Shown one piece after another: positions 27,001 to 63,209 of a DNA stretch of 64,000 bases. The position numbers were made by a program, and so were the translations under genes. A model generated the notes under the pieces. It saw only the letters and a list, made by a program, of their open reading frames with translations, was not told the origin of the DNA and made no database searches. How positions within the stretch are numbered: the stretch's first letter is position 1; every line of letters starts with the position of its first letter. The stretch lies in assembly GCA_030737835.1 (NCBI GenBank), contig JAUJYN010000064.1, positions 1 through 64,000 on the forward strand, given 5' to 3'. Origin of the DNA: Acorus gramineus (lineage: Eukaryota > Streptophyta > Magnoliopsida > Acorales > Acoraceae).

Positions 27001-28499
27001 ATTTCCAGATGTTGATTAAACTTTAATATATAATCAATTTTGAAGTCCTATTTTTCACTACAAACAAAACAACAAAAAAGTACATCCAAGTAAGTCAGTT
27101 TTCAAAGGAACTATTATGTAATGTACATAACAGGTTTGTTCAGATCATGAATTTGAAGGAAACTGGTAGCAATCACATTAGAAAAACAATTTTTTAATGT
27201 TGAAATATTGCAAGAGAATAAATAGAAACCATAATTTATTGCAACAACTGCCTCATTTTTCACCCCATTCCAAAATCTAATAACAACATTGTATTCCCTA
27301 TCTGCACTTAATTCTTTTCTTCATGTGAAATGAGTTAAGAACATATACCCCACAACTGAGACAAATTCTATAGAATAAATAATTCCTAAAAAAAACACTT
27401 CCATGCATACTGTTAGGCACGAGGTCTTTGGATTGACACAAATGCGGAAGATAAATTGGCTGGAAGCATAGCAGGAGGATGTGTCTTGTAAGTTAAATCT
27501 TTCTACTCTTTTAATTGATGATACAGAAAGGGACTCAACATAGCAAAGAGACATAAAAAGATCTGGGATGTCAAATAATCATTGAAGATGAGGGTTGTTT
27601 ATTGTCACGTGGTGCAGGAAACATGATATGCAAACGAACCCATTCTCCGGTTTTACATTCTGCCACAGGGCACCAATTGTTCCAAATCCCTGACTCGGCT
27701 AAGGGCCAATACATGCACATTTTGATTAATACCAACAACACACCAACCATGTGATTTCTTCTCTTTTGTGAATTCTTTCTTCTATTATCATGTATTCCCT
27801 TATATAGTCTGCCCGTTCTAATAAAATTGGTGGACACTACACTTCATAAATCTATCGTATACGCAAGCACAATAAATACTTTTCTTTTTCTTTTCAACAC
27901 CCAGATCACTCATTCATAGAATATATACAAAAGGTACGCACAAATCAATTACTAAAAGAAGAGACATACAATCTTGTCGACGTAATCCTTGATGAGGCCA
28001 TTCTTGTCCCCGATCTCCGCATCCTTCAGCTCCACCAACTCCAGGAGCTGCCTCTTGGACTTGTGGAGCTCCGAAACCTCGACGGACAACCTCTCAATCT
28101 CACCATCCTTTTCAATCTAAAAAAAAAAAGAAGAATAAAATCAGCCCCCCCCCCCCCCCAACAAAACGAAAACGGGAGTAAGTGAAACCCTAACCCTACC
28201 GTCTGGAGACGGAGCTGGTGGTTCTCGGCCTGGAGGTTCGCGAGGTCGGCGAGGCGCTGATCGAGGGAGGCGGAGAGGTCGGACTTCAGGGACTCGAGGC
28301 GGGAGTAATCGGAGGACAGGGAGAGGTACCTCTGCTCAAGGAGGGAGGAGGTCTGCTCGGAAGTGATGGAGGCCGCCTCGGCCTGGGCCCTCGCCGTCTC
28401 GAGCTGCACCTGGAGGTCCCTTATGAACCCGTCCGCCCTCTCCGCCACCGCCGGAGGGTCGAGGAGGCGGAGCTCCTCTTCGGTGATGAAGAGCGGCAT
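45..28499 (-). CDS. NUA: Nuclear pore anchor / TPR-like nuclear basket protein (3' part outside window)
   Basis: The product is a plant homologue of Tpr/Mlp, the long coiled-coil protein of the nuclear basket. From family knowledge it anchors at the inner face of the nuclear pore and acts in mRNA export and in SUMO homeostasis with the ESD4 protease; Arabidopsis mutants flower early. The sequence supports 35 exons that join in one continuous frame with 3624 nt of coding sequence (about 1208 residues). The start is Met-Pro-Leu-Phe at 28499, as in Arabidopsis NUA. Recognisable blocks in order are [13 protein letters not shown] (exon 1), [12 protein letters not shown] (exon 2), [10 protein letters not shown] (exon 4), [15 protein letters not shown] (exon 7), [15 protein letters not shown] (exon 10), [15 protein letters not shown] (exon 15), [11 protein letters not shown] (exon 18), [18 protein letters not shown] (exon 22) and [11 protein letters not shown] (exon 35). 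The protein is almost wholly heptad-like and rich in E, K, L, Q and R. The Arabidopsis protein is about 2090 residues, so roughly 40% lies beyond base 1. No frameshift or stop was seen in the exons. Confidence 0.94.
204..1075 (-). other. NUA intron 34, no recognised element
   Basis: This is an AT-rich intron of 872 bp between exons 34 and 35. I saw no coding remnant, repeat pair or RNA gene in it. Confidence 0.6.
2118..2640. mobile_element. Possible decayed DNA transposon with degenerate ends
   Basis: The segment begins with CCTAGGAAGCACGAACAC and ends near GTGTCTATGCACCATAG, which is a weak inverted match of the same end. Inside, words such as GGACATG and GTGTCTATG recur on both strands. 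The ends resemble those of old plant DNA elements, but the match is poor and no target-site duplication is certain. Confidence 0.3.
2932..3206. mobile_element. MITE-like inverted-repeat element
   Basis: The two halves are near-complementary over about 85-110 bp: the left arm starts GGGTTTTTTATTTTTTAGTCC at 2932 and the right arm ends with its complement, AAATAAAAAAACCC, at 3206. Shared inner words include ATATGATTTAGTGATCGATC and its complement at 3150-3175. The total length of 275 bp with no coding capacity fits a miniature inverted-repeat transposable element. I could not identify a convincing target-site duplication, so the superfamily is open. Confidence 0.75.
3981..4065. repeat. Partial duplication of NUA exon 33 and its splice acceptor
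   Basis: About 27 bp starting at 3981 (AACTCTTGTATTGTCTCAG...) recur from 4034. In transcript orientation the upstream copy (4034-4065) carries its own TATAG/GTT acceptor followed by the exon start. Splicing to it would read V-S-S-I and then a stop. Confidence 0.8.
4013..6282 (-). other. NUA intron 32, contains a LINE fragment
   Basis: This 2.27-kb intron contains a LINE piece at about 4400-5470 (separate entry). The flanks are AT-rich with poly-A and poly-T runs and nothing else recognised. Confidence 0.7.
4400..5470 (-). mobile_element. LINE (non-LTR retrotransposon) fragment, endonuclease region
   Basis: Read on the minus strand, 5300-5340 encodes WCVMGDFNV, the conserved block of the endonuclease-exonuclease-phosphatase domain of plant L1-type LINEs. 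It is followed by [17 protein letters not shown]. Downstream come RFTLS..., a segment resembling LDRFL..WEEPFP in shifted frames, and at 4500-4700 a connector region with [22 protein letters not shown] and [14 protein letters not shown]. Several stops and frameshifts break it. Its orientation is the same as NUA. The reverse-transcriptase core and both element ends are missing. Confidence 0.75.
7338..7987 (-). other. NUA intron 27, no recognised element
   Basis: This is 650 bp of AT-rich intron sequence. I saw no coding remnant or repeat structure. Confidence 0.6.
8312..9106 (-). other. NUA intron 25, no recognised element
   Basis: This is 795 bp of AT-rich intron sequence with no coding remnant or inverted repeat that I could find. 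Confidence 0.6.
9879..12554 (-). other. NUA intron 20, long AT-rich intron
   Basis: This 2.7-kb intron contains a perfect 37-bp tandem duplication (10024-10097) and a long G run near 12113-12129. No transposon protein remnant was recognised. Confidence 0.65.
10024..10097. repeat. Perfect 37-bp tandem duplication
   Basis: The unit beginning AGATAATCAGACAAAATAG occurs at 10024-10060 and again, without mismatch, at 10061-10097. The identity of the copies suggests a recent event. Confidence 0.95.
13089..13175 (-). other. NUA intron 17 with a non-canonical GC donor
   Basis: Exon 17 ends after the codons for SLHSS at 13176 and the intron begins GCAAGT instead of GTAAGT. The acceptor at 13089-13090 is AG, followed by [10 protein letters not shown]. 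The junction reproduces the conserved family sequence [14 protein letters not shown]. The nearest GT (four bases inside) would shift the frame. GC-AG introns are a known minor class that usually keeps a strong donor consensus, as here. Confidence 0.85.
13290..13802 (-). other. NUA intron 16, no recognised element
   Basis: This is a 513-bp intron without any element I could identify. Confidence 0.55.
14155..14696 (-). other. NUA intron 14 with a hairpin
   Basis: This 542-bp intron carries the inverted repeat at 14254-14333. Otherwise it is AT-rich, with repeated words such as TATGAAAGT.A.AAT. Confidence 0.6.
14254..14333. repeat. Perfect 23-bp inverted repeat (hairpin)
   Basis: The arms at 14254-14276 (TAAGATTCCATAAATAAG...) and 14311-14333 are perfect complements separated by 34 bp. 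The 80-bp structure could be a very small MITE or a foldback scar. It lies in NUA intron 14. Confidence 0.85.
14774..14851. repeat. Perfect 39-bp tandem duplication filling NUA intron 13
   Basis: The unit starting CAAATTTGTCAAAGAAC is present at 14774-14812 and 14813-14851 with no difference. The two copies make up most of the 112-bp intron 13, so the intron was shorter before the duplication. Confidence 0.95.
14982..16128 (-). other. NUA intron 12, no recognised element
   Basis: This is 1.15 kb of AT-rich intron. No coding remnant or repeat pair was recognised. Confidence 0.55.
16178..18735 (-). other. NUA intron 11 with a long pyrimidine tract
   Basis: This 2.56-kb intron contains a C run near 17269 and a CT-rich block at 17340-17585. 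No transposon protein remnant was seen. Homopolymer A runs lie at 18416-18427 and 18719-18730. Confidence 0.6.
17265..17585. repeat. C run and CT-rich low-complexity tract
   Basis: A run of C at 17268-17279 is followed by about 245 bp almost entirely of C and T (17340-17585) in CTCTCC and TCTCTC patterns. On the gene's strand it is a polypurine (GA) tract. Short open frames through it are compositional artefacts. Confidence 0.9.
19240..20221 (-). other. NUA intron 9, no recognised element
   Basis: This is 982 bp of AT-rich intron. A short partial duplication (ATTATGAAGCTTTAATT near 19727 and 19758) is visible; nothing else was recognised. Confidence 0.55.
20858..24725 (-). other. NUA intron 6, largest intron, contains a LINE
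   Basis: This 3.87-kb intron holds a truncated LINE (21650-23240), a T run at 21119-21134, a C/A run at 21281-21309 and a T20/G-rich run at 24380-24426. The sequence after the last run, ending in a degenerate AATTTTATTAATCAAAGTGGGG, resembles LINE 3'-end sequence. Confidence 0.7.
21650..23240 (-). mobile_element. Truncated LINE, reverse-transcriptase C-terminal half and zinc-binding end
   Basis: On the minus strand, 23090-23165 encodes [18 protein letters not shown], matching the QGDPLSP motif of non-LTR reverse transcriptases. About 22,470-22,600 gives pieces like [12 protein letters not shown] and [13 protein letters not shown], which correspond to the usual GGLGI..LK..N.ALLAKW block. The part at 21,690-22,300 runs open for about 205 codons and includes [13 protein letters not shown], typical of the zf-RVT region at the LINE C-terminus. 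Frameshifts and stops separate the blocks and the 5' half is absent, as in 5'-truncated LINEs. Orientation matches the host gene. Confidence 0.8.
25180..25952 (-). other. NUA intron 3, possible LINE or SINE tail
   Basis: This 773-bp intron contains TTTTTTTGGAATAGAAGG followed by GTCACTAGGATTTATTAATAA at about 25711-25750, which looks like the reverse complement of a retroposon 3' end with a poly-A tail. No coding part is attached. Confidence 0.4.
26052..27969 (-). other. NUA intron 2, no certain element
   Basis: This is a 1.9-kb AT-rich first-half intron. The stretch 27410-27840 has a different texture: it starts TGTTAGGCACGAGG, and a TATATAAGGGAATAC motif lies on the minus strand near 27795. 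It could be a solo LTR, but I found no second copy or clear target duplication. Confidence 0.4.
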
Positions 28500-28604
28500 C
28501 GCCGCGTGTTGTTGGCTCTGGTTTGTTCAAAATGGTGATGGACGTCGCGAAATGGGAATGAGAAGAGTCTCTAGGGCTTGTCGAGAGTAGAACGTTTTGT
28601 TTTT
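28500..28604 (-). promoter_or_regulatory. 5' leader of NUA, cut off from its upstream DNA by the MULE
   Basis: Only 105 bp separate the NUA start codon from the left end of the Mutator-like element. No TATA box is evident in this short stretch, so it is probably untranslated leader. The original upstream sequence should resume at 37563, on the far side of the transposon. Transcription of NUA in this haplotype would need either the element's terminal region or read-through from beyond it. Confidence 0.6.
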
Positions 28605-28651
28605 GGGTGCGTCTAACCCCACCAACCATTTTGCTCTCCCCCCCAACCACC
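28605..28651 (+). repeat. MULE left terminal inverted repeat
   Basis: These 47 bp begin GGGTGCGTCTAACCCCACCA and continue through CTCTCCCCCCCAACCACC. They match the reverse complement of 37516-37562 except at position 21 (A against G). Homology stops sharply after the TIR. Confidence 0.92.
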
Positions 28652-29502
28652 CAAATAATAAAACATACGATGTGTTTTTTCTTTTTTATGATTAACCCCA
28701 CCAATGAACCCCTCCCCACCAACTCAAAAATATGTGAATGCCATCCCCACCAACTGAATCCAAATAAAACCCCCAAACACATGCCCTCTCTCTCCCCGCC
28801 CATTTATCTACCGTCGACCGCAACGTCCGCCATCGACATCCCCGGCCGGGCAGTGTACTTCCTCCGGTGACACCCCGAAGACCTTCCAACGATCCTCATT
28901 GATTCTCACGAGTGCAAATAGATGCTCTAACTTGAAAGAATCACTTTGGTGAGTATCCATTCTTCATTGTTTGATTTTTTTAAATTTGTTTGTGTTTTCT
29001 TGTGGATATGGTGGCATGGGTGGTGATTGTTGAGATTTTTGTTGCAATGGTCATGTTTGTATTTTTAGGGTTTAGGGTTATGGTAGTAGTGATGGTGTTA
29101 GAGGTGGTTCTATTTGTATGTCATTGTGTAGGACATTTATACGTGATTGGTGGTGATTATGATAGTGTTGATGGCCATGGATATGTGTGGTTTTATAGTT
29201 TGTTTGAGTGATATGCCATATGTGTGGTTTGGATGATATGCCATGTATTGGTTGGGATGGTTGTGGTTTGCGGTAGTATTGGATGGTGATGTTCGATGGG
29301 ATAGTGGTCATGGTGTTGTAGGTGGCATTTATAGGGGTATTGGTGGTGTTTGGTCATAGTTTTATTCATTAAACATGTGTCATTGTGCCTTTACATACCA
29401 TTCATGTTAATTTGTTTATCAATGAAATATTCACACAGGTATTGAAATGATAGAGCTATGATCAACCGTTGATTTGTAGAACCACCACAAGTGCTTTGAA
29501 GT
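28652..29502 (+). other. MULE left subterminal non-coding region
   Basis: About 850 bp lie between the left TIR and the first proposed transposase codon. The part 28,960-29,350 is rich in G and T on the plus strand (GGTGGT-like words). Short open frames here have no recognisable similarity. The transposase promoter is expected in this stretch, but no clear TATA box could be assigned. Confidence 0.6.
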
Positions 29503-32402
29503 ATGAATAAAGAGGTTAGTCTTTATGCTTCCGTAGATATATTCTTCATAGACTCATAATTCAAAAAAATAATGACATGTTTATTGTATTTTCAGAAGTA
29601 TCTAATACCATTTGTTGAAGATGCCGAGGAGTCCATCCCCAACACGATGGAGGCCATGTCCAATGATGCGATCACCAACATTGACACCACCGAGCATTTC
29701 TCCACACCCTTGGTAATGTTAACGATGACTCCACTTCCTTGGTAACATGTTATGATGAAATGTGTAGCCATATAATATAGGAGGTGACATGAATGTAATG
29801 GATATTATCATTCTTTCAGGTCTTTGACACCCGAGCTGAACTAATTGATTGGGTCAAACGTGTTGGTAGAAACATTGGTGTCATAGTAGTCATTGGCCGG
29901 TCGGAAACCTCAAACCCTCGTAGATCAGCACGAGTGGATCTAATATGTGAGAGAGGAGGGGAATACGACGGTAAACCAAGAAAAAAGGACGTCAAGAAGA
30001 AGGATATAAAGAAGTGTTGAACCGGTACAAAGAAGTGTGGTTGTCTATTCAAGCTACGTGCTATTGAACACTCAGAGAGATGGTCGTTGAGAGTTCTATG
30101 TGGTATACACAATCATTCCCTCATCGTCAACTTCGAGGGCCACTCATTTGCTGGGAAGCTTCTAGAGGAGGAATACACTGTGCTAGAGGGAATGTCAGTG
30201 AGCGGCATGCGTCCTCGCGATATTCTAACGCACTTGAAGAATAGAGATCCCACCAATGTCAGTTCAATAAAGAATGTATATAACGCACGAACAAAATTAC
30301 GACTTCGAGAAACATGTGGGCGTACACAGATGCAACAGCTGATGAAGTTGATTTATGAGCATGGTTATATTGAACGACATCGAGTGGAAGATGAAGATGA
30401 GGTTGTGTCAGAGATCTTTTTTGTGCATCCCACTTCCATTCAACTAGTGAGAGCATTCCCTCTTGTGTTTATGATTGATGCTACTTACAAGACCAACAGA
30501 TACAGGTTACCACTCTTAGAGATAGTGGGAGTGACTTCGACGGGGAGGACATTTGCTGCTGCGTTTGTATATTTGCGGGCAGAGAAAGAAGAGAATTACA
30601 CATGGGCGATGGAGTGCTTCAAATCACTCTTCGATGGATCCCCCTCCCCAAAGGTAATCATAACAGATCATGAGGTCGGTCTAATGAATGCTATATCTGT
30701 GGTATTTCCATCGACTGTGAACCTCCTTTGTCGTGTGCACATAGAAAAGAATGTGGTGAAAAACTGTAGAAAATCGTTTGAAGACGTAGAAACATGGAAC
30801 AGATTTATGGGGGCATGGGCTGAAGTGATGAAGGCAATGACAGAGGTTGATTTCTGTAGAAAATTGCAACGCCTAGAGAATGAATTCATTGGTTATCCAA
30901 AAGTGATTTCATACTTGAAAGCAACTTGGTTGGATAAGCATCGTGAAAGGTTTGTCTCTGCATGGATTGACAGACATATGCACCTTGGTAACACATCCAC
31001 AAATCGCGTAGAGAGTCACCATGCTAAGCTGAAGAGACATTTGCAAACATCGGTTCACAATTTCGTGAGCTCCTGGCGAACCATCCATAATCTCTTGGAG
31101 TTGCAATTTTCTGATATAAGGGCCTCCTTCGAGGAGAGCCTAACAAAAATCCCTCACAGGTATCGAGGGTGTCTGTACCAGGACCTTGTGGGCGTAGTCT
31201 CTATATATTCCCTTCAGAAGCTACAGAACGAGATACAGGCGAGTGATGGAGTTGGCCCAGATAGCACAATTTGTGATCATGCAGTGTATACAACTTGTGG
31301 ACTACCGTGCGCCCATATGATTGGTGAATACAAGCAAGAAGGTAGATCAATACCCATTGCTGCAATTCACCCATTTTGGCGAAAGCTTGGGATAACTCCA
31401 TTCATTGATGACTTCACCGACTCGGTTGACATCGGCCCAGAAATTGAGATGCTCCTCAAACGATTCACTCATGGGAACATTGTCCAACAAAAAGAGATTA
31501 AAAAATATTTGAAAAAATTGAGTGATCCATCTGCCACGCTCCTTTTAGAGCCAACTGCTAAGGTGAACACAAGAGGCCGGAAGAAAAATGGAAAGCAAAG
31601 AGCAAAAGCATTAATAGAAGAATCAACCAAAAGATCTCCAAGTGGTTTTGAGTATGTTCTTCAGTCAATTGAGCAATCAAAGAAAGTTGATACAGTTATT
31701 AGCGAGAAGGGCTCACAATTGAACCCTGATACCATACGACCGAAGATGGCAGTGCAAAGGGGAAGGGTTCTTCGGAATCGAAACATCGAAAGCGAGAAAT
31801 ACATTGCTGAATTCCCCCCTTTCCTATCCCCATTCATAAGAAACGTATATGACGTTATCGGGGATGGTCATTGTGGATTTCGGGTGATTGCATCCTTTTT
31901 GGGCATGTCAAACGATGGTTGGAGGGATGTTAGGAATGATCTCCTGTTTGAGATCGAGCAACACGAAGAACAGTATGCAAGGGTGTTCTATGGATTGGAT
32001 CGTGTGGATGAGGTGAAGAGGACTCTGCGTTGTCAATCTTCAGTGGCCGATAGAGAGCATTGGATGTCTATGCCTGACATGGGATTTGTGATCGCCTCCT
32101 GTTACAAAATTGTGGTTGTACATATTTCAAAACATCAATGTCTGACATTCTTCACACTAAGAGATCCTCCACCTCCAATTAGTGCCCACCGAATCCTACC
32201 AATTGGTTATGTAAATGGATGTCACTTCGTTGGTTTGGATTTCACACCAGATGCTCCGTTGCCTCCTGCGGCAAGATCATGGGATCGGTTTCGTCTTGAC
32301 GTGGCAAGTGCATGGATAACGCCATATAGTGAAAGAATTGATCGATTCAAAGCTCTAGCAGGGACTGACATAGCAATGGCCGATGTTGTTGATATTGACT
32401 AG
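29503..32402 (+). CDS. MULE transposase with FAR1-type, SWIM and OTU protease domains; one internal stop
   Basis: Proposed exons are 29503-29514, 29596-29712 and 29820-32402, all joined in phase 0 with GT-AG introns. Exon 3 starts VFDTRAELIDWVKRVGRNIG, followed by CERGGEYDGKP and TGTKKCGCLFKLRA, the FAR1/MuDR-type zinc-binding DNA-binding domain. A TGA at 30018-30020 interrupts it between KKC and TGTKK, where a CGA (Arg) would fit. From Met 30087 the frame is open for 771 codons. In that numbering the MULE DDE residues are D131 (MIDATYK), D194 (ITDHE) and E309 (NRVES). A SWIM zinc finger has C396, C404, C408 and H410. An OTU cysteine-protease domain has D593/C596 (GDGHC) and H713 (GCHFVG). 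The first two parts would cut and paste the element; the OTU part, by family, removes ubiquitin. The stop suggests a broken or N-terminally shortened protein. Confidence 0.85.
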
Positions 32403-32412
32403 GCTGGCCTAC

Positions 32413-32526
32413 CATTTTGTATAGACAGTGTAAAGTCACATAGTGTGACTCATTTTGTATACACAGTGTAAAGTCACATAGTGTGACTCATTTTGTATAG
32501 ATAGCCTAAATGTCATATAATGTGAC
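32413..32526. repeat. Three 38-bp tandem repeats just after the transposase stop
   Basis: The unit CATTTTGTATAGACAGTG... occurs at 32413-32450, almost identically at 32451-32488, and in diverged form from 32489. It starts 11 bp downstream of the transposase stop codon, so it lies in the 3' untranslated region. Each unit holds the near-palindrome AGTCACATAGTGTGACT. Confidence 0.9.
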
Positions 32527-32654
32527 TGATTTTGTAAAGTGTAAATGAATCTGAATGTTCTGGGTTTGTGGTATATAATTCACTTATGTGCAACTGGATA
32601 TGTTTAGATTCATGTTAGAAATGGGTTGATTCTTGGGGGCAAAAATTTATAAGT

Positions 32655-33655
32655 CTGACAATCCATTCGACAGGCCTTTCGTCGACCTGGGAAACACTGG
32701 TCGACCAAACACCCGTCGAATTAACTGTCAGAATCGAAGTATGTTCTGACATTCTGCTCGACAGACCTTCTGTCGACCTGGGCCATACAGGTCGACAGAA
32801 CCCTTGTCGATGCACCAAACAGAACCAAAAACATGTTCTGTCATTTACTTCGACAGACATACCGTCGACCTGGGACATATAGATCGACAGATTCCCTGTC
32901 GAAACACCAAACAGAACCAACTCATTTCTTCCAGTGTGCTCGACAGACCTTCGGTCGACCTGGGCAGTACAGGTCGACAGAAGCCCTGTCGATACACCAA
33001 ACAGTAGCAACCCATTTCTGACATTTCGCTCGACAGACCTTTTGTCGACCTGGGATATCCTGCTCGACAGAATCCCTGTCGATACACCAAACAGAACCAA
33101 CCCATTTCTGACATTGGGCTCGACAGACCTTTTGTCGACCTGGGCTATCCTGCTCGACAGAATCCCTGTCGATACACCAAACAGAACCAACCCATTTCTG
33201 ACATTGGGCTCGACAGACCTTTTGTCGACCTGGGTTATACTGCTCGACAGAACCCATGTCGATACACCAAACAGAACGAACCCATTTCTGACATTGGGCT
33301 CGACAGACCTTCGGTCGACCTGGGTTATACTGCTCGACTGAAGCCCTGTCGATAGACCAAACAGTAGCAACCCATTTCTGACATTCGGTTCGACAGACCT
33401 TTTGTCGACCTGGGTTATATAGCTCGACATAACCCCTGTCGATACACCAAACAGAACCAACCCATTTCTGACATTCGGCTCGACAGACCTTTTGTCGACC
33501 TGGGTTATATAGCTCGACAGAACCCCTGTCGATACACCAAACAGAACCCACTGATGTTGTCATTCACCTCCACAGACCTTCTGTCGACCTGGGGTGCATA
33601 TGTTGACAAAAGCCTTGTCGATTCACCAAACAGAACCAAAACTGTTGTCATTCAC
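32655..33655. repeat. Array of about eleven 90-bp repeats with GTCGA palindromes
   Basis: Units start with CGACAGACC at 32668, 32759, 32851, 32941, 33031, 33121, 33211, 33301, 33391, 33481 and about 33571, giving a strict 90-bp period in the middle and more divergence at both ends. Each unit has two short hairpins: TCGACA-N7/8-TGTCGA and TCGACAG-N5-CTGTCGA. Because 90 is a multiple of three and the unit lacks stops in several frames, long open frames run through it on both strands. The array lies exactly between the convergent 3' ends of the two MULE genes. Confidence 0.96.
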
Positions 33656-33889
33656 CACAATATGTTGACACTCCAATTATGACAAAGATATAAATAACTG
33701 GTACATTTATCACACTTCAACATTCAACGATTCATAACATTAAACATTCAGTGTTCAGAAGTTCAAGAGAGGCTATTTTACAAGATCTTCACTCACAAAC
33801 ATGTACTGATTCTTTAGTTTTCCCAACAAGAAAAAAGAAATTTTCTGATTGGGGCACATGGATTGACTGTACTTTGAATCATTCTTCGG

Positions 33890-36560
33890 TCATCTGTGTC
33901 GATCATGTCTTTGCTTTGACCGCCTTTGTACAGTTTGTGCATCGGGGAGTGGCGTGCCATCCTTCAAGTGATGAATAACATCACGGATCGTGGATTGAGC
34001 GGCAGAGATAGTTGTCCTCTTATCCAGCAGCAACTCAAGATATTGGACGGCATTTGCATTACGCTACCAATGAACAAGTTCCATATAAAAAAAGAGAAAT
34101 AATTCGTATAATCAAATTACACCAAAAATAAAGGATAATTCAACAGTATACCGTATCAACATCGGATGTAGAGGCCATTTGCGCCAATTTCCTGTTATGC
34201 GGGTTTTGTACGAATCTATGACTCATTCTTTCAAACCATTTGATGTAATCTGGAACTGCATCCCATGATTGATAAACCCTGTCTCCCCTTGAAGCCACAC
34301 TTAAGACGGAATCATGCCATTGCTCCAATTGTTCCACACTACCACCATATTCTGCTTTATAGCCGGTAGAGGAGCGATTCCTTTTTGCTACTCTCTGTGG
34401 TCTAATTGGTGATCTCGGGACTGTCTGAATGTGCCCAAACTGTCGGAGTACCCTGTCAGGCATGTACGGCTCAAAAATAGAATTTATACAAAGACATCCT
34501 TTGAAGAAGGTAAACTCGCTGAGTGGTCTGTGGTCTCGGACGGATCGATATGGATCCCAATCAACCTGCGCAATGTATTGTTTCAAGTTAATGTGGATTT
34601 TAGGTAAAAATATAAAAAATAAAACATGAGAAGCTTTGGACAAGGGCTACCTGATCAGGTGCAGCAATGTCGAGGAGCTCACGAATAACTTCAACAGAAT
34701 TTTTTTGCAACCCCGGTATGTTACGACTACGAATCCACCGATCAGACCGAGGAGTTTGATCGTCGTATGTAGAGTCGGGTGCTGGGCTCAAAAAGAGGAG
34801 GTGCTCATATACCCAAACCTACGCAAAGGGTTTTTGATAAAGGATTTCAAACAAAAAACATGCCACATATAATGAGATATATACTTTTATAAAATATGAT
34901 ATGCATATTCCAATGAATTGTATGAACTATTTCATAGAAATCTATAATATTTCTAACGATGTATATATTACAATGAGTGTAGATAGTACATGTATTCGCA
35001 TTATTTAAGATTTGATATGCACACATAGCTTTAAAAAAGGGTTCCCTTATCCACATCTGAACGTTGCCTGTGTAGTTTATGTGGTCCCTGCATTATTGAT
35101 AACATCCACGCTTTTCTTCCTTTCAAATAGAAACCATGACATGTGACACTAATAATTCTTGATAGATATTTGATAGTGAGACTGATATTCTTTTTTTTTT
35201 AACAAATAAAATAAAAAAGTTGGAATAGTCCATCCCCATTTTTCAGAAAGGCATAGAATTTGGACATATATATAGCACAAGGTCTTTAGGCTGCTCAAAT
35301 ATGGTGATAAACCAGGATCCTGTGACATCCTACCAATTTTTTTTTTCTAGGGCACTCTTACAGACCTATAGAGAGAAGTTGAGAGTGAATTTGGTAGAGA
35401 AATTCCCTAGTGTTGATAAAGGATTTAAAACCAAAAGCATATGTCAAACTTTTAAATAAATAGAATCAATACATGAAGTCTACGTACCTCTAATAGTGTA
35501 AGATAACCAGAAATTTGCTTGCAGTTAGCTCGAGATGCAATACCAAGTTGCCGGTAGATATGTGCAAGTGTTGCTGTCCCCCAACCAAAGGAACCGGTAC
35601 GATCTATGTCAACCAAAAGGCTAAGGTATGCTACCGGAATAGTAAACCCAGTCTTATCACTGAATAATGTACAGCCAAGCAAAAATAATAAGTAACCTCT
35701 AACAGCAAAATCTATTTGCACGCCCGACTTCCCAGCAGACTTATAAGCAAGCTTATCTCGTAGCCACACCAACCTAACAGCATTACCATTGTACCTTCGC
35801 AACTCATCCATAATCACTGGAAGTGGCAAATTCAGGCACCCTTTCACTAAATCTGAGGCTTCGTCAATGGTTAAAGAGGTCAAAACATTTATCGCCTTCC
35901 CCATGACTGGAATGCCGACTATTTGGGCCACATCATCTAAGGTTATCGTCATCTCCCCAAATGGTAAATGGAAGGTATTTGTCTCCGGGTGCCATCGCTC
36001 CACCATTGCAGTAATTAAAGGATTATTAAGTGTCTTGAAGCAATACATTGCCAGCGGCCACAACCCACTTTGTTTCACTCGATCTGTAAAGGTTAGAGAT
36101 TCCTTCTCCAAATCCCAGCTATCTAGTGTCTTGGCCGGTTGGCGACATCGCAATGATCGGTCACCCTAAAAAAAAAGTGGAACATATATAGAGTGAATAA
36201 TTTATTTATTTTATAACAGATTAACATAATTAGTAGTTGTTACGTTACACATACCTTGCCATTCCATACACGATATGCGATATGATGCCTGTAGTCCAGG
36301 AGGAGTTCATTGGTCTCAGGCCCACCAAGAAAGGGACCTCTTATGCTATCCTCATCTACATCAGAGTCAACTGGTAAAATATCTTGTCTCTCTTCTTCTT
36401 CGACCTCGTGTCCCTCTTCATCGGACATTACTACTTCATCTTCCACTTCTTCTTCTTGAGCATGTGAGACAATTGATGTTGAAGGTGCGCTTTTAGCCAA
36501 CCTTTCAGATTGACGTCTTCGAAGAGAGGCGGTTTGAGGGATGCGTTGTTTGGGGGCCAT
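33890..36560 (-). CDS. Plant mobile domain (PMD) protein, MAIN/MAIL-like, carried by the MULE
   Basis: Five coding exons join in phase 0 to an uninterrupted 579-residue protein: 36255-36560, 35488-36165, 34651-34818, 34152-34565 and 33890-34063 (stop TGA). Residues 1-102 are basic, then strongly acidic (EEEVEDEVV, EEEERQD). From about residue 103 comes the PMD: FTDRVKQSGLWPLAM, VERWHPETNTFHLPFGEMT and ITLDDVAQIVGIPVMGK. Later exons carry WVYEHLLFLSP, VDWDPYRSVR and YIKWFERMSHRFV, also typical of the family. The family includes Arabidopsis MAIN and MAIL1, nuclear proteins needed for meristem maintenance and transposon silencing, and many copies found on transposons. I chose the start at 36560 because a good 3' splice site (TTATGCAG) ends directly before GATGGCC, implying a 5'-UTR intron. 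The gene starts near the right TIR and runs toward the transposase gene. Its role in the element is unknown. Confidence 0.88.
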
Positions 36561-37515
36561 CCTGCATAAGGTGGATTGAACATTGGCATTCAACTATAGA
36601 GCAAAAGCATTTAAAAAAAAACCAATGATATTCTAGAAGGGTAAACAATGTTCATTATTAAGAAGAATCAAATTTAAGCATTATAAAAGTAATGCCCTAC
36701 ATATGTGACTACATAATCATTCTAATTTCAATCAATTGAATTTTTTTTTTTTTAAGATTAGTGAATTATAAATGGACATGAACCACCACTCAATTCATTA
36801 GTCTTGTCAACACAACAAAATATATAAATTCATCTTCATTATTGAACATAAAACCAATCCAATTCAATTACAATCCCTAAGTTTCTATGAAAAACATAGG
36901 TTCCATCCAAAATCCCCCCTATTTTTATTTATTTTTTATTTATTTTTTTTGAAATAACCAATCTTTGAAATCACATGATGAAGCCTAAACACAGTCCAAT
37001 TCAAATATAAACCCAAGGTTTCTATGAAAAACCCTAGGTTTCTATCCAAAACTCACACAATCCAATTTAAACATAAACCCTAGGTGCCCAATGAAAAACC
37101 CTAGTTTCTTTTTTTGGAATAACCAATCTTTCAATCCACATTTTAGTTTTCCTAAACCCTAAAAACAAGATTTGAGCAATAATATTAATATTCAAATGAT
37201 TCAAGAAGAAGTAGGAATGATGGATTACCTACAATGTGATTTGCAGGGATGATTTTTGTTTCCTCCTGATGAATCTCCGGCGGTGTACGAGGATGAAAGA
37301 GGGATCCGATTGAGCAGCGGTGACTTTGTAGATCGGCTAAGGAGGAGGAGGAGAGGGAAAGGACGAGAGGGAGAGCAGAGAGAAGAAGACGGAGAGGAGA
37401 GAGGTAGTCGGTTTTAGATAAATAAGGGAGGTGGGGGTGGGATTAGATATTTAAATGAATGTTATAAATAGTGTGGTGGGATTATGTATAATAAAATGAG
37501 TAGGTTGTGGGAACA
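36561..37515 (-). promoter_or_regulatory. 5' untranslated region, intron and promoter area of the PMD gene
   Basis: A probable UTR intron runs from a donor near 37227-37233 (TTGTAG/GTAATC on the minus strand) to the acceptor at 36562. Upstream of it, 37240-37430 is purine-rich on the plus strand (GAGGAGGAGG) and includes a TAAATAAGGG motif near 37415. The transcript probably starts between here and the right TIR. Confidence 0.5.
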
Positions 37516-37562
37516 GGTGGTTGGGGGGGAGAGCAAAATGGCTGGTGGGGTTAGACGCACCC
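37516..37562 (-). repeat. MULE right terminal inverted repeat
   Basis: This is the inverted partner of 28605-28651. It ends GGTTAGACGCACCC at 37562, directly followed by ATTGTTTTT, the second copy of the target duplication. Confidence 0.92.
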
Positions 37563-37571
37563 ATTGTTTTT

Positions 37572-50882: not shown

Positions 50883-52157
50883 CCTCTCTCTTTATTTGGT
50901 TTCTCTCTACCTTATCCGATTCTCCCCCCCAGACTCTCGATCCAACCAGATATAATCTTCGTAAGAGGGAGGAGTTACTACAAACACCTGTGCATTTACA
51001 ACTGGAAAACAGTTGAAGAAGATGTCATGACACACGTGGATACCCATGCTCTCATGGGTACCATATCTGATTAAATAAAATGTAACATTTTGTATTCGCA
51101 TTTTAAAATTTTTTTTTTTTTTTTTTTTAATAAATAGCCCATTGAGACAAACTTTTATTCCAACTTTCAAAAAACAAAATTATACAGGATGATTCTTTTA
51201 ATTCCTTTTTACGTTTAATGAAATGCATAAAGAAATTTGAGAACTTATAGTTAAAATTGGCCCACATTGTGGGACGGTAGTAGAAGGGTGTGCTTGTAAA
51301 GCCTTATAAATTTAGAATGTATTGTGGGCTCTAGTAAGATGCGCTTTATTGAGGAACGGTTTTGATTTAAAATTAGTACCATGGGGATTGGATTCAGATC
51401 CTATGCTTGTTTTTTTTATATTTATATCTTGTTTAACTCATGTAAGATTACCGCATTATCATGTATAAGATCATGTGATTGTAAATATATCAAATGAAAT
51501 TGATTTTTTTTCCATTCACATGCATTTACAACCTTTTGATAATGAAAGTCAAACAAGATACAAATATGTAAAAATAAGCAAAGGATATTAAGGCGATTTC
51601 TGTAGGCCTCTCTTCTACTGCTACCTGTATCCTATGTGTGCTATTTTTTCTTGTATGCTTTGGGAACTCCCTTATCCTTATTAAATATAAGACATTTGCT
51701 TGCCGTTTTGCAGGTGAACAAATACGACTCGACCTGGAAGAAAGAATGGTATGGCGCGGGCCTCTTCGCGGAAGGCAGTGAGGAACTCCAGGTCGACGTC
51801 GTCAAGAAGCTCGAGAAAGGGAAGGTCCTCAGCAACGTTGAGAAGGCCGGCCTCCTCTCCAAAGCCGAGGAACTCGGTCTCACTCTCTCTTCCGTCGAGA
51901 AGCTCGGCATCCTCTCCAAGGCCGAGGAGTTCGGCCTCCTCAGCCTCGTCGAGAGGGCCGCGGGCACTTCCCCTTCCGCGCTCGCTTCGGTCGCGCTCCC
52001 GCTTATCGTCGCGGCCGTGGCCGTAGTCGTGATCACGCCCGATGATTCGGCGGCGTTGGTGGCCGTCCAGGCGATTCTCGCGGCGGTGCTTGGCGTTGGC
52101 GCGGTGGGGCTCTTTGTTGGGTCGGTTGTGCTTGGCGGGTTGCAGGAGTCCGATTAG
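50124..52157 (+). CDS. Thylakoid DUF1118 protein, RIQ1/RIQ2-type
   Basis: Two exons, 50124-50243 and 51714-52157, encode 187 residues with GT-AG splicing in phase 0. The first 35 residues are rich in Ser, Thr and Ala (MAVSASAATH, SPRRRTSTIVAMAP), a typical chloroplast transit peptide. The mature part starts VNKYDSTWKKEWYGAG. Next come repeated LSNVEKAGLLSKAEELGL, LSSVEKLGILSKAEEFGL and LLSLVERAAG, the DUF1118 signature. Two C-terminal membrane helices follow (LASVALPLIVAAVAVVVIT and AILAAVLGVGAVGLFVGSVV). By family, RIQ1 and RIQ2 are grana-enriched thylakoid proteins needed for normal grana organisation and induction of non-photochemical quenching. Exon 2 is far more GC-rich than its surroundings. 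Which of the two paralogues this is cannot be settled by eye. Confidence 0.88.
50792..50878. repeat. TA then GA microsatellite in the DUF1118 intron
   Basis: About 25 TA units run directly into about 15 GA units. This compound microsatellite lies in the 1.47-kb intron 50244-51713; otherwise that intron is AT-rich with homopolymer T runs and no other element seen. Confidence 0.95.
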
Positions 52158-60480: not shown

Positions 60481-61459
60481 ATGACTTTTGCTTCCACATT
60501 CAATTCTACCTCGTGGAGTACCGCAAGAAGAGAAACCAACTACGTCAATTCCATAAATTGAGGTTTTGCCAATTTAAATGGATCATTTAATTGAGCAAAA
60601 TTTATTCTATTATGATATACTAATAAAAAAAAATGGACAATATACATATAGACAAAAAGATTTAACTAGTGTGAGCACCTAGCACCCTTTATTAAAAAAA
60701 GAAAAAAGTGGACACCCAAATAACTGTCATAAAATAAATAATATCAAATTATATAGTTTTTGGTTTGTCTTTCCATTACTCTTATTTGTAAAAATGTTTC
60801 CCCATGTATACATGTATCCAAATCACTTTCCTGACATAGTGTTATATATGTGTCACTTTTTGACCTATTGACAATCATTGGAGCATTTTTAGCAGTTTTA
60901 AAATTTTTAGGGTTTTTCGATCGGAACCGCGTAATTTCAGACTGTTAGCTATCGTCTGAGCTAGAGGACTCCGATTGAAAATCTAACTGCATATTATGTG
61001 TCCTGGTGCCATTTTAAGCCACTCATGAAAATTTCATCGAATTCTGGCATCGTTTGCAAAAATTTCGCAGTTCCGGGGCGTATCCGGGTTTTTAAGTCGC
61101 GCTCTACTTAAAAGGAATCAAAATATCTGTTTTTACTATTCATCATCTTCCCGACTAGCTTTCTCTCTCTCCTCTCCTCCGATTTTCTTCCGTTCGAGCC
61201 CCTACACCCCTCAAAAAAGAAAACCTAAAGCACGGGAAGTGTAGATCGGGTCCCGATCTACGCTCCGGTGTCTTCAAATCCAAATTCCGACGATCCTAGC
61301 CTCCCCGACCTCCCCTCTCTCTCCTCTGTTTCGAGCCAAATCAAGGGCCGTGATAGATCGGGGCGTGAGAAGGCTTGTGGGAAGGGTTTCGGCGCGTGGA
61401 GATCCACCGGACACCTCCTCCTCCCCTCGGTAAGCCTCTTTTCCCTCTCATTTCTTGTC

Positions 61460-62340
61460 TAGATGATTGCTAGGGGAGGGTTTTGTGTTGGGAGGTGGTT
61501 GGTGGCGGTGGGGGTCGTCGGAGGGTGGTCGGAGGTGGTTGGAGGTGGTCGGGGCAGTGGGAGGGTGGTTGGAGGCGCTCGGCAGGCTGGGGGACTGTCC
61601 CGGGCAGCAGGGAGCAGCGGCAGCGGCCAGGCAGCGCGCAGGCCGGGCGCGCGCGGGCATGCGCGCGTGCGTGCGCGGGTGTGCGTGCGCGCGGCGTGTG
61701 CGTGGGTGCGCGCGGGCTGGTGCGTGGGGCTGGTCGTGCTGGCAGCGCTGGATGGGCTGGGGGCCTCAGGCAGCACAGGCGGCGAGCAAGCCGGCTGGGC
61801 GTGCGCGCGTGCGTACGCGCGAGCGTGCGCGCGGGCGTGCGCTCGGGGGAGCTGGTCGCGGCGGTGCGAGGCGTGCGAGCTGCTCGGGTGGTGCTGTGCG
61901 CGGGTCTGCTCGTGCAGCTGTGCGCGAGGAGCTGGTCTGGGCGCTGGTCTGGGCGCGCGCGGAGGTGCTGGCCGAGGTGCTGGACGCGCGAGGTGCGCGC
62001 GGAGGTGCTGGCCGAGGTGCTGGACGCGCGGAGGTGCGCGCGGAGGTGCTGGCGCGAGGTGCTGGCGGAGGTGCTGGCGGAGGTGCTGGGGCGCGCGGAG
62101 GAGGCGCGGGGCGGGAGCTGTGCGCGAGGCGTGCGCGGGGCGCGGCGGAGCGCGGAGGTGCGCGCGGGGCGCGCGCGGGGCGAGAGCGTGCGCACGGCGT
62201 GCGGGGCGCGTGCGGGCTGCCGCGGCTGGGCTCGGTGGACGCGCGGAGCCCCGGGCGGTGCGCGGAGTGCGCGGGCTGAGGCGCGGCGGCGCGTCCGGGC
62301 GGTCGGGTGGCCGTGCGGGGGTGCCGAGGGTGTTGGGTGA
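61460..62340. repeat. Extremely GC-rich low-complexity block inside the LTR
   Basis: From about 61490 G dominates on the plus strand (GGTGGTTGG words); from 61620 to 62335 the sequence is mostly G and C with GCGCGC and GTGCGCGCG words. Tandem units such as GAGGTGCTGGCCGAGGTGCT appear around 61961-62090. Overlapping long open frames exist in all forward frames and one reverse frame, which shows they are compositional. Confidence 0.9.
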
Positions 62341-63209
62341 TTAATTTGGGATTTTGGGTGTTTATTTGTGTATGTTATGTATTTTTGGGTGATTGTGGAT
62401 TTATACTTACAGTTAATACATTGTCTTGCAGATCTCGACGGACGGTCGCGCGTCGACCCGATTTCTGGTGAGTGGGACAACCCAACCCAGTTTGGGAGGC
62501 GTTACATGCTTTGGGCGTGTACCGACCTCCCCTGGGGCGTATAGTTGTATTAACTGTTATTTTATAATCCATGTAAGCATGATGTGTGTGTAGAATTGCA
62601 TGCCACCCTAGATTGTGTGTTAGGGACTTGCACCCTTAGGATTGTGCATGAGCCATGCATCCTGCCACCTCGCTATCATGCTAGGAAAGCCCGACCTGTG
62701 CATGCGTCCTATTAGTTTGGTTTATTTAGTTAAATGCGAACTGTAATATTAGATAGCATGCTTAGGGAATATAAGGGGGGCCTTGCGAGGTTAACATTGA
62801 GACCCGGGTTAGGGTACTCCGTGTTCCTCGTTTGGTTGTCGGATGTCCTACATCGGGACCTCAGGTTACCCTCCCAAGGTCTCTATTTTCCCTTGTATTA
62901 TGATTACTAAATGCATGTTCCCCGCATCCTGGTTATGCGCGCTGGTGGAATTCTGAGGAATTCGAGACATTAGAGTCTTAGAGATGTGCTGTCAGCGGAT
63001 CCGATGGATCATATGCGATGGATAGGCTGTTCTGTTCCCCTCGTCGGATCCGTGTAGAGACTACCTCGGCGTTAGACAGGTTGTCCCGTGCAGGGGCTCC
63101 CACTAGTAGGCGCCTCCTGACTTGGAAGGACTGCGCTGAACATGGGAGTGGCCAAACAACCGCGGAGTGAGGAGAGACTATCGGTGGACCAAGGGTAACC
63201 AACAGCCTA

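Follow-up and report, generated by a model that had tools for sequence, protein, structure and literature searches.

In a 64,000-nucleotide stretch of the Acorus gramineus genome (assembly GCA_030737835.1, contig JAUJYN010000064.1, positions 1 to 64,000; hereafter the window), a Mutator-like element (MULE) at 28605-37562 carries a transposase gene on the plus strand, a convergent gene for a plant mobile domain (PMD) protein on the minus strand, and a tandem array of short dyad motifs between them. The element is a Mutator-like transposon and one copy of a multi-copy family: it has a MULE-type DDE transposase, terminal inverted repeats (TIRs), a target duplication of about 9 bp, and copies at different sites. 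We consider it probable that in this family the PMD protein works on the element's own array in the way that VANC21, the sequence-specific anti-silencing protein of VANDAL21, an Arabidopsis MULE, works on its targets (PMC5735166, PMC10398659; PDB 9lnj; papers are cited by PubMed Central number for their available parts), and that the transposase ends in an active ovarian tumour (OTU) ubiquitin protease. In such a mechanism, the PMD protein would read the dyads of the array and, once bound, would keep its own element family free of DNA methylation; lowered methylation would then allow transposase expression and transposition. Array and PMD protein would change in step between one family and the next. 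The predicted OTU protease, for its part, would protect the transposase, or strip ubiquitin at chromatin or repair complexes.

The architecture claimed in an earlier note on this DNA, that is, TIRs, a target duplication and two convergent genes encoding an OTU-fused transposase and a PMD protein, was confirmed by our sequence analysis. The TIR arms are 98% complementary over 48 nt, one flanking T/A included, and the CCCCACCAA motif, present four times near the left end, has just one more copy in the window. An exact 16-mer from the TIR occurs at 17 places in the 398.6-Mb assembly, compared with none for the reversed control, and these places correspond to 13 loci, of which the window is one and L009-L020 are the others. 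Full or near-full-length copies number nine (the window, L009, L010, L011, L012, L013, L016, L018 and L020; the alignment of L016 starts at element position 348 and that of L018 at 8), and each of them has both genes in collinear order. Among the remaining loci, L014, a 4.1-kb internal deletion derivative, has lost most of both genes while retaining TIRs and array, L015 and L017 represent the PMD half (with no transposase in L015 and only its end in L017), and L019 is about half masked. Perfect 9-bp target duplications flank five of the eight loci with both ends (L009, L012, L013, L020 and L014), and L010 and L011 have no perfect 9-bp flank match. Contig C43 carries two family copies, L011 and L020. 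The exact TIR 16-mer is missing at two more places where PMD exon 2 is 98% identical (C7 at about 1.71 Mb, and C11 at about 10.95 Mb, where there is a stop).

The PMD gene appears to be maintained by selection within the element. Its frame is open in six of the nine copies and broken in three, while the transposase frame is open in three. Across 36 copy pairs, which are non-independent and include the broken copies, the ratio of nonsynonymous to synonymous polymorphism (pN/pS) was lowest in the PMD core (0.14), with values of 0.26 for the PMD, 0.31 for the transposase and 0.36 for the OTU region; purifying selection acts on the PMD. In full or near-full-length copies PMD and OTU transposase thus go together, and constraint on the PMD is no weaker than on the transposase. 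The suggestion that the two genes travel together holds for these copies, and the loci with the exact TIR do not consistently lack the PMD or the OTU domain. Nor is the PMD a host gene at this one position, because the element carries it at different places in the genome.

The PMD protein itself offers a link to anti-silencing. The gene has five exons and encodes an uninterrupted protein of 579 amino acids, and its four introns are all GT-AG and in phase 0. In Pfam searches of three exon frames (E<=0.01), exons 2 and 4 matched PF10536, the sole family found, and exon 1 matched none; the DUF1985 signature was not among the matches. The best protein match, P0121 from A. gramineus, is identical at all but 6 of 406 aligned residues. 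The predicted fold of a relative that is 49% identical to the window protein matches VANC21 (9lnj), a DNA-bound anti-silencing factor that was the only close fold found. Judged from this modelled relative, the window protein is probably shaped like a known anti-silencing protein of transposons. No match to viral structures was obtained at E<=0.001, and two scans of viral contigs returned no relatives. In a tree of 36 PMDs with Arabidopsis references absent, the window protein grouped with five other Acorus sequences (SH-aLRT, an approximate likelihood-ratio branch support, 100), and no Arabidopsis protein was among the best 120 of 162 or the best 120 of 375 PMD matches listed. Relatives of the PMD are labelled in protein databases as host genes, either MAIN-LIKE or serine/threonine-protein phosphatase 7 long form.

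The candidate target of this protein is the 90-bp array. Its consensus unit contains TCGACA/TGTCGA four times, forming two 19-bp dyads, and the 6-mer count of the unit was reached by 2 of 5000 shuffled units. With up to three mismatches, 22 dyads lie in the array and one elsewhere in the window. The dyad is found neither in the TIRs nor in the remainder of the element, and all 26 of the element's TCGACAG sites are inside the array. The observed/expected ratio of CpG falls from 0.91 for the array to 0.66 for the element and 0.60 for the whole window. The nine full-length copies and L014 have arrays of 7.2 to 11.9 units, the partial copy L017 has one of 6.2, and across seven copies the mean gap is 0.165 in the array and at most 0.011 in other regions. 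A search for known motifs gave no DOWN sites in the window, no sites of the VANC21 motif YAGTATTAY in the element, and one VANC6 site in the element. Judging from the sequence, the dyad array may be the landing site of the PMD protein. A small second array lies close to the end of the transposase gene, with units of 38 bp in the window and 77-78 bp in L012, L013, L016 and L017. Across the genome, TCGACAG-N5-CTGTCGA has 857 sites with at most one mismatch, versus 14 for the reversed control; single dyads occur outside the retrieved arrays, for example at about 4.37 Mb of C1 and 29.47 Mb of C2.

Comparable arrays accompany other PMD copies in the genome. A search with PMD exon 2 gave at least 151 matches, in identity groups near 100, 80, 75, 64-66, 57, 53 and 39%, and we sampled ten stretches with other copies (L021-L030). 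A transposase lies on the strand opposite the PMD in six (L021, L022, L023, L027, L028 and L029), and a 45-amino-acid fragment of one in L030. In 7 of the 10 stretches the PMD is flanked, on its transposase side, by an array with units of at least 88 bp. In six of these the array is between both genes (124 bp x 9.2 in L021, 240 bp x 5.6 in L022, 88 bp x 5.2 in L023, 126 bp x 8.4 in L027, 126 bp x 9.1 in L028 and 90 bp x 5.9 in L029); the seventh, L025, has a PMD and an array of 91 bp x 10.9, and an OTU transposase could not be recognised within its 7.8 kb. Half-sites differ among families when exact dyads of 5-bp arms and a spacer of 9 are counted: TCGAC in the window (20 dyads), L021 (9), L022 (14) and L029 (4), TAGAC in L025 (18), and TCGCC in L027 (4) and L028 (3). 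Shuffled units reached the spacer-9 result 0, 5, 1 and 0 times per 1000 for the window, L021, L022 and L025, respectively, and the result for any spacer from 4 to 14 was reached 0, 76, 12 and 6 times; the shuffle tests covered these four and L023. Family-specific tandem motif arrays in non-coding DNA, a mark of VANC systems, are present in the window family and in 7 of the 10 stretches. GC-rich arrays are also present in L021 and L025. The PMD form of about 39% identity occurs at dozens of listed places with near-equal scores, L026 being one, and is possibly the retrotransposon-borne PMD-A.

Several observations weigh against a VANC21-like role. Three of the ten stretches (L024, L026 and L030) have no such array: L024 lacks a transposase and has two-copy repeats besides an array of 43 bp x 4.2, L026 has neither an OTU transposase nor a large array in its 7.8-kb stretch, and the PMD of L030 is close in identity to that of the array-bearing L025. 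The dyad geometry is uneven as well. Spacer 9 ranks top only in the window, L025, L027 and L028, the last two on 3-4 dyads each, and higher scores were obtained for spacer 20 in L021 (12 versus 11), 13 in L022 (20 versus 18) and 19 in L029 (9 versus 6). L023 has no spacer-9 dyads with 5-bp arms, carrying CGAC-N8-GTCG (4-bp arms, spacer 8) instead. The shuffle result is weak for L021 when any spacer from 4 to 14 is allowed, and L023 does not pass the test. Common descent from one ancestral array may explain part of the dyad similarity, though the units otherwise differ in length and sequence. Within the window family, mean identity between seven copies is lower in the TIRs (0.93 and 0.92) than in the array (0.955), and stronger conservation of the TCGA columns than of other columns in the unit was not supported, 20 of 89 shifted masks doing equally well or better on the window units. 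Dyads also occur singly elsewhere in the genome. Finally, the fold was predicted for a 49%-identical relative instead of the window PMD, the link to VANC21 is structural, and PMD profiles A2, A3 and A4 failed to reach 9lnj by sequence. Nevertheless, the fold match, the array of the window family and the selection result are independent of array counts in other families, spacer spectra and partial copies, so that our estimate is unchanged.

The transposase could be the array binder instead, with the array serving as a binding or enhancer site for its AFT/FAR1-type zinc finger, aiding end pairing or expression, and the PMD doing something different. The AFT2-related DNA-binding domain (4lmg, E 2.8e-7) and the retention of the array together with the TIRs in the deletion derivative L014 are in keeping with this idea, but the confinement of the dyad to the array and the combination of PMD and array in L025 make it unlikely. 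An explanation that we find equally hard to favour is that the PMD is a decoy of the host silencing complex of MAIN/MAIL1, for instance by binding PP7L, and that the array is a functionless by-product of slippage. MAIN/MAIL1 do silence together with PP7L (PMC7156037), Ikeda et al. speculated that transposable elements use captured PMDs against silencing (PMC5418596), some other MULE groups are listed with minisatellites near their transposase frames (PMC6446971, Table 1), and PMDs stand without such an array in L026 and L030. Against this reading, seven of ten stretches have their array on one and the same side relative to the PMD, several of them sharing the 19-bp dyad spacing despite different units, and the only close fold is that of a DNA-bound anti-silencing factor. 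It is very improbable that a host PMD gene was simply captured in Pack-MULE-like fashion, brings the element no benefit and is now decaying, since the broken transposase frame in the window and the three broken PMD frames are set against a constrained PMD core in a gene that every full or near-full-length copy has kept.

The transposase side of the element adds a second candidate tool. The gene is predicted to have three exons (29503-32402, plus strand), and exon 3 encodes an AFT/FAR1-type DNA-binding domain, the MULE DDE domain, a SWIM-like zinc finger and a C-terminal OTU domain. The finger has His at one ligand position in 12 of 121 aligned sequences, the window included. Pfam gave no match to OTU up to E 10, and the assignment was settled by profile and by the presence of the OTU fold. 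Catalytic Cys and His with an upstream Asp are present in the window (residues are numbered on a 793-amino-acid open reading frame) and complete in 80 of the 95 relatives that span the region, from 120 listed relatives of which 25 do not cover the site. As suggested earlier, the predicted OTU protease might interfere with host control. Judged by sequence, the window copy has a defective transposase, although the TGA may be a sequencing error; with this stop, it would be mobile only if another copy supplies transposase. OTU-MULE transposases are labelled as host genes in protein databases, either PKS-NRPS hybrid synthetase or FAR1-RELATED SEQUENCE.

Features of the element, in window coordinates
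Feature	Position	Strand	Basis
Target-site duplication, left flank TTTGTTTTT	28596..28604	.	8/9 bases match right flank
Left terminal inverted repeat	28605..28651	+	repeat-arm comparison
Subterminal CCCCACCAA motifs, n=4 (28617, 28696, 28714, 28745)	28617..28753	+	motif count
Transposase exon 1 (predicted)	29503..29514	+	GT donor, in frame
Transposase exon 2 (predicted)	29596..29712	+	AG/GT borders
Transposase exon 3 (predicted), one stop codon inside	29820..32402	+	profile and exon analysis
In-frame TGA inside DNA-binding domain, window copy	30018..30020	+	frame translation, copy comparison
MULE transposase (DDE) domain	30465..30752	+	E 6.9e-25
OTU protease-like domain with Asp615, Cys618, His735	31788..32345	+	profile and fold
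Tandem array, 38 bp x 3.2, directly after transposase stop	32413..32536	.	repeat search
Tandem array, 90 bp x ~11, 19-bp dyads TCGAC-N9-GTCGA, candidate binding array	32654..33643	.	repeat and motif analysis
PMD exon 5 with stop	33890..34063	-	exon analysis
PMD exon 4, PMD domain E 2.7e-10	34152..34565	-	Pfam and exon analysis
PMD exon 3	34651..34818	-	exon analysis
PMD exon 2, PMD domain E 2.2e-42	35488..36165	-	Pfam and exon analysis
PMD exon 1	36255..36560	-	exon analysis
Right terminal inverted repeat	37516..37562	-	repeat-arm comparison
Target-site duplication, right flank ATTGTTTTT	37563..37571	.	8/9 bases match left flank

The element starts 105 bp upstream of the ATG of a neighbouring gene, whose first exon lies at 28203-28499 on the minus strand. 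We take this exon to resemble the N-terminus of the plant nuclear pore anchor NUA/TPR; in Pfam it gave only a sub-threshold coiled-coil match. Elsewhere in the window are a DUF1118 protein (51606-52154, plus strand, Pfam E 2e-46) and, at 61459-62501, what appears to be a GC-rich repetitive stretch, in which long open frames of the two strands overlap.

Parts of this system have counterparts in known transposons. Several plant MULE groups are already listed with an antisense PMD gene, and the window element is like groups 42 and 47-50 of that list in having its PMD on the opposite strand (PMC6446971, Table 1). MUDR, MUDRAVI2, MDR and MULE-Monocots share with it a transposase and a PMD, often antisense, 9-bp duplications where indicated, and, for most of them, TIRs at least tens of bp long; in contrast to the window element, neither an OTU domain nor an array is entered for them in that table, where the only ovarian tumour domain belongs to MuDR-6_HM of Hydra. 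Cysteine proteases of the ubiquitin/SUMO class on a transposase or transposon protein are shared with Ginger1 (PMC2836005) and the Kaonashi Ulp1 MULEs (cited in PMC13317346), but Ginger1 belongs to another superfamily and the plant MULE cases carry Ulp1 rather than OTU. VANDAL21 differs in that its anti-silencing protein has the VANC domains DUF1985/DUF287, which were not detected in the PF10536 protein of the window, and in that the window transposase carries an OTU domain; the window dyad also differs from YAGTATTAY, and binding of the array by the window PMD is putative. Counting further against a close equivalence, VANDAL TIRs are degenerate, whereas those of the window element are long and intact. 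We therefore describe the PMD as working like VANC and not as a VANC, because the DUF1985 signature and degenerate TIRs are lacking and the binding is inferred. Capture of host PMDs by MULEs and a role in anti-silencing have both been published (PMC6446971, PMC5418596), so the antisense PMD is not new, and neither is the anti-silencing idea of the earlier note, in print since 2017, although it gains support here from the VANC21 fold match and the motif arrays. In the openly licensed literature, the longest result lists being partly covered, we found no paper that ties PMD to VANC by structure and no description of an OTU-fused plant MULE transposase. None of the papers searched described the combination of a VANC21-like PMD fold, dyad arrays beside the PMD that differ by family, a PMD under purifying selection and a transposase with an OTU tail; for the link between PMD and VANC folds we claim no priority.

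The Arabidopsis silencing factors MAIN/MAIL1, which are of the PMD-C type, have a domain named PMD, as does the window protein, where it corresponds to PF10536. How their complex acts has been described as largely unknown (PMC8616336), and direct recognition of the DOWN motif by MAIN/MAIL1/PP7L has been left open in print (PMC9899485, PMC7156037). A broader proposal, which we advance tentatively and with slightly more doubt than confidence, is that PMD is a sequence-specific DNA-binding fold common to MAIN/MAIL1 silencing and VANC anti-silencing, that MAIN/MAIL1 read the DOWN motif by the same surface, and that the PMD and private dyad array of flowering-plant MULEs form a co-evolving, family-specific pass through host methylation, silencing and anti-silencing then being different uses of a single domain. 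A VANC21-like fold and candidate arrays with family-differing half-sites provide a concrete binding test for these poorly understood plant silencing proteins. If the VANC21-like reading is true, the OTU protease would be a further transposon tool, and sequence-specific transposon anti-silencing would reach beyond the VANDALs of Arabidopsis to the PMD-carrying MULEs of other flowering plants.

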